60,941 bases of DNA, taken from contig JAISNC010000093.1 in assembly GCA_031276355.1 (NCBI GenBank), positions 1 through 60,941 on the forward strand, written 5' to 3'. The notes under the pieces are model-generated. The model had not been told where the DNA came from and did no database searches. It saw only the letters and a list, made by a program, of their open reading frames with translations. Numbering within the stretch: position 1 is the stretch's first letter; each line of letters begins with the position of its first letter. The position numbers and the translations under genes were made by a program. This DNA is from Odoribacteraceae bacterium. GTDB taxonomy: Bacteria > Bacteroidota > Bacteroidia > Bacteroidales > Marinifilaceae. Shown here piece after piece: positions 39,602 through 40,455 of the stretch.

Positions 39602-39636
39602 AAAAATAAAGAATCCCGTCATCTCTGACAGGATTC
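39602..39636 (-). terminator. pheA attenuator terminator
   Basis: On the minus strand GAATCCTGTCA pairs with TGACGGGATTC (11 bp, one G-U) around GAGA, followed by TTTATTTTT. It ends 7 bp before the pheA ATG. The 5' arm can instead pair with GGACAGGATC (39686-39677), which lies directly after the leader stop, giving a mutually exclusive antiterminator. Confidence 0.85.
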
Positions 39637-39690
39637 GCGTGTTTCACTTCGTATTTATGTTCGTTCTACCATGCCGATCCTGTCCCCTTT

Positions 39691-39741
39691 CATGTAAAAT
39701 AAAAGTAGTGGAAAGAAAAGGTATGATAAAATCGTTTCATC
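39691..39741 (-). CDS. pheL: Phe/Tyr-rich leader peptide of the pheA operon
   Basis: A 16-residue ORF absent from the ORF track: MKRFYHTFSFHYFYFT, with six Phe and three Tyr among 16 residues. Five of the six Phe codons are TTT, the form less used in the GC-rich neighbouring genes. It is preceded by a TTG-N18-TACCTTTG promoter (39770-39798) and followed by an antiterminator strand and a terminator before pheA. This is a textbook ribosome-mediated attenuator: scarcity of charged Phe or Tyr tRNA stalls the ribosome and permits readthrough. Confidence 0.8.
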
Positions 39742-39769
39742 GCTCGTGTTTTATCGTGTTTGGCGGGCC

Positions 39770-39798
39770 AAAGGTAGCGGTTTTTTCCCGGCGTACAA
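39770..39798 (-). promoter_or_regulatory. Promoter of the pheA operon
   Basis: On the minus strand, TTG (39798-39796), 18 bp, TACCTTTG (39777-39770), a full Bacteroidota housekeeping promoter. The predicted start is near 39763, about 22 nt before the leader peptide ATG. Confidence 0.75.
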
Positions 39799-40104
39799 GC
39801 GGTAGGGAAAATTTTTCGGGGCAGGCAGATTCAAGTAGCAAATGTGACTACAATTTTCTTTGTGCTATAAGTATTTTAGCCGCAATTTATATTGTTAAAA
39901 CGAGAATAAATCTTTGATCTATTTCCCGTTTTAACAACACGTCATCAGTATCACGTTGTTTATTTATTTTCAATCCTTTATTACTATAAAGTTGTATTTA
40001 CTAATTGAACTTACTTGATTTGATTTGTTATTTGTTATCTCCTTCTCGTGAGGTCGCGTGGGCAAGTGACTTCGCGTGTTTCTTAAAAAAAAGTAGAAAA
40101 AACT
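39799..40104. other. AT-rich intergenic region between the divergent pheA and ilv promoters
   Basis: About 300 bp without a credible ORF or RNA gene. The only structure seen is an imperfect inverted repeat at 39894-39936: GTTAAAACG with its complement CGTTTTAAC, extended by partial pairing to about 18 bp. It might be an operator or a bidirectional terminator; nothing supports either strongly. Confidence 0.4.
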
Positions 40105-40159: not shown

Positions 40160-40240
40160 ATGCGACACTTTATTCTACACGTGATTCTTCTAACGGTCGG
40201 TGGTGTGATTACCGCGGGAGCGAGAAAGGCGTGTGGATAA
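40160..40240 (+). CDS. Branched-chain leader peptide 1 of the ilvDB operon
   Basis: A 26-aa ORF absent from the track, from ATG 40160 to TAA 40238-40240. Its middle, FILHVILLTVGGVI, is dense in Ile, Leu and Val and uses CTA and ATT codons that the downstream genes use little. Its last codons contain GCGAGAAAGGC (40220-40230), which is perfectly complementary to GCCTTTCTCGC (40266-40276) in the following hairpin. A ribosome stalled at the Ile/Leu/Val codons leaves that strand free to act as antiterminator; one reaching the stop covers it. Confidence 0.75.
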   Translation: MRHFILHVILLTVGGVITAGARKACG

Positions 40241-40262: not shown

Positions 40263-40300
40263 GAAGCCTTTCTCGCGCGCCGGGGAAGGCTTCTTACATT
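40263..40300 (+). terminator. ilv attenuator hairpin 1
   Basis: GAAGCCTTTCTC (40263-40274) pairs with GGGGAAGGCTTC (40282-40293), 12 bp with G-U pairs, then TTACATTT, a weak T run. The alternative pairing with 40220-40230 (11 bp perfect) disrupts it. Confidence 0.65.
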
Positions 40301-40310
40301 TAAAGAAGGC

Positions 40311-40394
40311 ATGAGACAAGGAAACTATTTGAGACCGGAGAGTTCGTTGGAGGTGATTCTAATTACCATTCTACCCGTGGTGCTACGTACCTGA
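40311..40394 (+). CDS. Branched-chain leader peptide 2 of the ilvDB operon
   Basis: A second short ORF, 27 aa, from ATG 40311 to TGA 40392-40394. It includes VILITILPVVL, again rich in Ile, Leu and Val with ATT and CTA codons. Immediately after its stop, CGGGAGAGAGG (40395-40405) can pair with CCTTTCTCCCG (40429-40439) of the next hairpin (11 bp, one G-U). This repeats the architecture of leader 1 in the same transcript, so the operon appears to have two attenuators in series. Confidence 0.7.
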   Translation: MRQGNYLRPESSLEVILITILPVVLRT

Positions 40395-40424: not shown

Positions 40425-40455
40425 AGAGCCTTTCTCCCGCGCGGGGAAAGGCTCT
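40425..40455 (+). terminator. ilv attenuator hairpin 2
   Basis: AGAGCCTTT and CTCC (from 40425) pair with GGGGAAAGGCTCT (to 40455) around a GC-rich loop. It resembles hairpin 1 in sequence. No proper T run follows (CGTCATAAAT), so termination may be inefficient or factor-assisted. It ends 27 bp before ilvD. Confidence 0.5.

Follow-up and report, generated by a model that had tools for sequence, protein, structure and literature searches.

We found that the region upstream of pheA in a 60,941-nucleotide stretch of an Odoribacteraceae genome (assembly GCA_031276355.1, contig JAISNC010000093.1; the whole stretch is called the window here) very probably encodes a classical ribosome-mediated transcription attenuator of the trpL/pheL kind that reads both phenylalanine and tyrosine, a reading to which we give a probability of roughly 0.87 from comparative sequence analysis. 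Transcription would start about 20 nt upstream of a short leader open reading frame (ORF). When Phe-tRNA and Tyr-tRNA are charged and plentiful, the leader would be translated to its stop codon, where the ribosome would cover region 2 or permit a 1:2 hairpin, allowing a 3:4 terminator to form and presumably to halt RNA polymerase before pheA. When either Phe or Tyr is scarce, the ribosome would be expected to stall on one of eight Phe/Tyr codons and to leave region 2 free for pairing with region 3. The terminator would then not form, and pheA, the aminotransferase gene, and tyrA would be transcribed. A classical attenuator had been proposed at this site in an initial annotation, and the proposal is now supported by conservation in the Bacteroidia, by covariation of two mutually exclusive helices, and by ribosome geometry.

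The three genes of the operon are tightly spaced (Table 1), and their matches to PDT, Aminotran_1_2, and PDH_N agree with the operon as annotated. An aminotransferase gene follows pheA in most relatives too. The annotated Phe/Tyr-rich leader peptide was confirmed, one base from the position originally given (39741-39691): 8 of the 16 codons of MKRFYHTFSFHYFYFT specify Phe or Tyr, and none of 2,000 dinucleotide shuffles of the upstream region matched its Phe/Tyr score. The full promoter claimed upstream of the leader was also present, as a TTG and a TACCTTTG element spaced by 19 nt, an arrangement that fits the Bacteroidota -33/-7 promoter pattern. With leader starts in relatives picked by composition, the 90 nt preceding the leader start contained TAnnTTTG at 180 of 241 loci, compared with 15 of 241 after shuffling. 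Among these 180 loci, the median distance from the -7 box to the leader start was 24 nt, and 163 carried TTG or TTT at the -33 spacing. TTT made up about 70 to 77% of leader Phe codons independently of G+C content, unlike in pheA genes at 60% G+C, where its share was only 17%. Either decoding or RNA pairing may be the cause of this TTT preference.

Table 1. Positions of the proposed pheA leader elements, the operon genes, and the neighboring ilvD leaders in the window
Feature	Positions	Strand	Remarks
-33 promoter element TTG	39798-39796	minus	From sequence; 19 nt before the -7 element
-7 promoter element TACCTTTG	39776-39769	minus	From sequence; Bacteroidota TAnnTTTG
Leader ORF MKRFYHTFSFHYFYFT, ending in a stop codon	39740-39690	minus	16 codons, 5 Phe and 3 Tyr; DNA ATGAAACGATTTTATCATACCTTTTCTTTCCACTACTTTTATTTTACATGA
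Putative hairpin 1:2, between leader codons and the stretch after the stop	39728-39667	minus	Minimum-free-energy fold
Region 2, predicted antiterminator strand GACAGGAT	39684-39677	minus	8 contiguous pairs with region 3
Terminator GAATCCTGTCA-GAGA-TGACGGGATTC	39636-39611	minus	11 pairs; terminator scan
Region 3, GAATCCTGTCA	39636-39626	minus	5' terminator arm, common to antiterminator and terminator
Region 4, TGACGGGATTC	39621-39611	minus	3' terminator arm
T run TTTATTTTTA of the intrinsic terminator	39610-39601	minus	Sequence and terminator scan
pheA, prephenate dehydratase, first operon gene	39595-38744	minus	Pfam PF00800 PDT, E 8.7e-52
Class I/II aminotransferase, second gene	38760-37576	minus	Pfam PF00155 Aminotran_1_2, E 3.8e-55
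tyrA-like prephenate dehydrogenase, third gene	37523-36750	minus	PF02153 PDH_N, E 9.3e-9; probable start codon
Putative first ilvD leader MRHFILHVILLTVGGVITAGARKACG	40160-40240	plus	Hairpin 40263-40293
Putative second ilvD leader MRQGNYLRPESSLEVILITILPVVLRT	40311-40394	plus	Hairpin 40425-40455

The 11-bp terminator with a T run had been placed just before pheA, and it was found there. Folded alone, the terminator has a free energy of -17.3 kcal/mol (z -4.5), and the fold of the whole leader RNA has a z of -4.3. The annotated antiterminator strand is also present, as GGACAGGATC at 39685-39676 on the minus strand, but it begins four bases past the stop codon and not directly after it. Hairpin 1:2 (-15.9 kcal/mol, z -2.0) is the weakest of the three helices, and in ribosome-free RNA before region 4 has been synthesized, 2:3 is the minimum-energy fold and is favored over 1:2. 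Because 2:3 pairing is favored without a ribosome, repression may require that a ribosome reach the stop codon and not that the 1:2 hairpin form. In these folding models a protective 1:2 hairpin, which would mask region 2 in the absence of a stalled ribosome, is plausible, and it is the least certain part of the device.

We compared pheA upstream regions gathered at the genus, family, order, class, and phylum levels. Similar Phe/Tyr leaders lie upstream of pheA in most relatives. A strict unit had to contain a Phe/Tyr leader, a terminator, and, 5 to 30 nt past the last Phe/Tyr codon, a complement of the terminator arm. In a sample of pheA loci chosen by PheA protein similarity, and therefore not random, 213 of 269 loci carried this unit within 200 nt of pheA, compared with none of 807 shuffled sequences. 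The device was missing from most members of one pheA-aminotransferase-tyrA group and from reduced symbiont genomes. Two genomes of 1.2 and 1.0 Mb (L178 and L286) have an intact pheA-aminotransferase-DAHPS-tyrA operon and have lost both leader and terminator; L285, a genome of 2.7 Mb from their genus, has retained both. Feedback control may have been lost there during genome reduction.

The host assembly is 84% complete in 127 contigs, and its nearest named relatives are metagenome-assembled genomes of Dysgonamonadaceae, Candidatus Symbiothrix, and Candidatus Azobacteroides, which are kinds of bacteria from termite guts. The PheA protein of the window is 54 to 61% identical to those of several genomes from other families of the order and at most 49% identical to those of other genera of its own family. 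The operon may have been transferred, or the family to which the assembly is assigned may be an odd placement.

To examine covariation, we aligned 54 relatives, in which the terminator and the antiterminator compete for the same region 3 columns. Two-sided changes were seen at 8 of the 11 terminator pairs, with 95% of cells paired, and at 5 of the 8 antiterminator pairs, with 91% of cells paired. The antiterminator covariation score was 0.354, against 0.217 for shuffled alignments, and for either helix none of 500 shuffles scored as high. Sliding the partner by one column made pairing collapse in both helices. Across 285 units, the complementarity of region 2 to the terminator arm of its own unit far exceeded that to the arms of other species: a region 2/region 3 score of at least 16 was reached by 77% of own pairs, by 22% when arms were swapped between species, and by 5% after shuffling. 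When region 2 was sought downstream of the stop codon, we obtained weak complementarity only. The search was re-anchored at the last Phe/Tyr codon, because the leader ORF extends through region 2 in many relatives, and complementarity was then clear.

The position of region 2 relative to the regulatory codons was likewise constant. The last Phe/Tyr codon lay a median of 12 nt from the start of region 2 (interquartile range, 10 to 13 nt), whereas its distance to the stop codon was anywhere between 9 and 42 nt. Such spacing is expected if region 2 must just remain free when a ribosome stalls at the final regulatory codon. In a simple occlusion model of the window leader, placing the ribosomal A site at each of the eight Phe/Tyr codons in turn left all 8 antiterminator pairs available, at -17.2 kcal/mol or better. 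Seven pairs were available with the A site one codon past the Phe/Tyr codons, and only 4 of the 8 with the ribosome at the stop codon. The placement of the regulatory codons in this model suits attenuation, in that region 2 would be freed by stalling and covered once the ribosome reaches the stop codon.

Which amino acids are sensed can be approached through the genes downstream of pheA, which vary by lineage: an aminotransferase gene, a DAHP synthase/chorismate mutase gene, and tyrA occur in several orders, or pheA stands alone. Operon content in relatives was judged from up to 6.5 kb downstream of pheA. At least one Tyr was present in the densest 14 residues of all 228 leaders that precede pheA together with aminotransferase, tyrA, or DAHP synthase genes. 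The mean core Y/(F+Y) was 0.43 in these leaders, compared with 0.06 in 16 leaders before pheA alone, 10 of which had no Tyr at all. On the PheA protein tree, operon content changed independently five times, and the leader shifted concordantly in all five cases; a sign test on the five contrasts gave p 0.0625, the smallest value attainable with that number of pairs. The addition of 40 loci brought the pheA-alone leaders up to 16 and left the number of independent changes at five. This match to operon content is the best available evidence on the question and supports functional Tyr codons in a device that would read both Phe and Tyr. Dual sensing had been offered as a possibility in the initial annotation, and the pattern, Tyr with operons that serve Tyr and nearly absent when pheA is alone, strengthens it.

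The same comparison bears on a reading in which the attenuator senses Phe only, and the Tyr codons either come from TTTTAC repeats that suit 1:2 pairing or are neutral neighbors of Phe codons. E. coli pheA is under such a leader, pheL, which uses Phe alone, and region 1 of the window, CTTTTACTTT, shows strong conservation at the RNA level in alignment A2 and is able to pair with a later stretch of the AGTAAGAG type. However, Tyr is kept without exception in the operon leaders and has been lost, with Phe retained, in five pheA-alone lineages. Leaders with Phe only still have a working region 2/region 3 pair, which implies that the RNA device needs no Tyr codons, and we consider a purely Phe-sensing attenuator unlikely. 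Leader translation might instead act through Rho-dependent termination or translational coupling, with the hairpin as a minor brake. The pheA start is only 16 bases past the terminator stem, and the antiterminator would alter RNA structure near that start as well; against this, the terminator and T run are conserved with compensatory changes and are usually the last element before pheA in relatives, which makes this explanation quite improbable. A ligand-binding riboswitch, a T-box, or a protein-bound terminator with an incidental short ORF would share the layout of a structured 5' leader and a terminator before an amino acid operon. Yet no Rfam family exceeded its cutoff in the window, and the only one to do so in eight relatives was a neighboring tRNA; the constant features are the run of Phe/Tyr codons and the spacing between that run and region 2, not an aptamer core. 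We regard regulation of this kind as very improbable indeed.

The best cis-regulatory match below the Rfam thresholds was Phe_leader (RF01859), whose model aligned over its full length (positions 1 to 125) to 39733-39606, upstream of pheA. At 17.7 bits against a gathering cutoff of 55, membership in this family was rejected; none of 26 relatives exceeded the cutoff, which a control genome passed. Like the window leader, the enteric pheL leader described by RF01859 is rich in Phe, has a region 2 and alternative terminator and antiterminator, and precedes pheA. The window leader differs in mixing Phe and Tyr codons and in serving an operon that adds an aminotransferase gene and tyrA. In E. coli, thrL (Thr and Ile) and ilvL (Ile, Leu, and Val) each read several end products of their operon through one leader, as the attenuator proposed here would. 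They differ in their amino acids and phylum, and here the codon set tracks operon content.

A 2004 comparative study by Vitreschak and colleagues in FEMS Microbiol Lett reportedly mentions attenuators in Bacteroidetes. The transcriptome of Flavobacterium psychrophilum, of the same phylum, gave signs of leader peptide attenuation at amino acid operons and revealed a pheA 5' element that is structured and conserved in Flavobacteriaceae; the main text of that report appears to present neither a pheA leader sequence nor its amino acid specificity (PMC9723704). A transcript map of Bacteroides thetaiotaomicron contains leader-peptide-like small ORFs within long 5' untranslated regions (PMC7366714). 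We found nothing more specific than these two reports in the open literature on Phe/Tyr leaders in Bacteroidota, and the remark that attenuation is little studied in this phylum is fair, although the field is not untouched. In Acholeplasma and environmental sequences, the uORFC-13-1 motif upstream of aroF likewise combines an upstream ORF containing at least one Phe residue and a terminator before a DAHP synthase gene, and, unlike the window leader, it is not known to have a Tyr pattern (PMC8632094). The mechanism we propose would be of the classical pheL/thrL/ilvL type, and its new features appear to be the spread across the phylum and the Phe/Tyr code, because the window and the relatives tested are below the Phe_leader cutoff and the literature on the phylum is general apart from the Flavobacteriaceae pheA element. 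If so, the textbook enteric mechanism probably governs how aromatic amino acids are made in a phylum to which dominant gut bacteria belong and in which RNA-level control is little mapped, and operon rearrangements would provide natural experiments on leader sensing that test dual Phe/Tyr control clearly. The Phe/Tyr elements lie outside Rfam and could become one or more new families.

A broader reading, which we hold to be somewhat better than an even chance from these comparisons, is that of an old, phylum-wide aromatic attenuator whose codons are tuned to the genes of its transcription unit: Phe codons where pheA stands by itself, Phe and Tyr where tyrA or DAHP synthase is included, and possibly Phe, Tyr, and Trp for stand-alone DAHP synthase in the genus of the window, with some lineages carrying two units in series. 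In this genus the DAHP synthase/chorismate mutase gene lies outside the pheA operon, and in the window genome a separate aromatic leader, MRQDLLKRFYWYHLYFQPRRGME, precedes it, with a promoter and a terminator. Two sister genomes have similar DAHP synthase leaders that also include one Trp codon. In this genus, the stand-alone DAHP synthase leaders at L363 (G000:C94:5555-6583), L383, and L385 each contain one Trp codon and are followed by a terminator; KRFYWYHLYF and RHFRWYYRYYFYF are examples of DAHP synthase leaders. A search before stand-alone DAHP synthase genes in pheA-alone lineages found no leader. Trp occurred in 38 of 219 pheA leaders of operons that include DAHP synthase, in 0 of 9 of operons that lack it, and in 2 of 16 before pheA alone, counts that are not decisive for a Trp component.

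The window pheA has one unit only. Two Phe/Tyr leader-terminator units in series precede pheA at L153, L156, L158, L159, L169, L172, and L223, and further double units were seen at L232, L260, L267, L293, L309, L324, and others. A loose scan gave 41 loci with at least two units, although some of these calls were doubtful; in a strict scan, 14 of 269 loci had a distal second unit, compared with none of 807 shuffles. If the broader reading is true, an operon behind stacked units would have to clear two codon-reading checks. The two ORFs of Salmonella mgtCBR, which are not known to be a repeated leader for one amino acid pathway, are likewise in series, as in some relatives and unlike the single unit of the window. 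There, tandem attenuators with two leader ORFs precede one operon (PMC3641672).

The ilvD gene of the window adjoins pheA divergently. In one pheA-alone lineage, an ilvD-like gene follows pheA on the same strand at three loci (L246, L320, and L321), and an ilvB-like gene follows it at a further member (L322). Upstream of the divergent ilvD-ilvB operon of the window, the plus strand apparently carries two tandem branched-chain leaders between 40160 and 40455. The first ilvD antiterminator would be formed by a long inverted repeat whose arms lie at 40209-40230 and 40266-40287. Of 21 relatives, most carry a single Ile/Leu/Val leader before ilvD and several carry two. Between the pheA and ilvD operons, outside both leaders, lies an AT-rich 15-bp inverted repeat, TTGTTAAAACGAGAA and TTCCCGTTTTAACAA, at 39892-39937.
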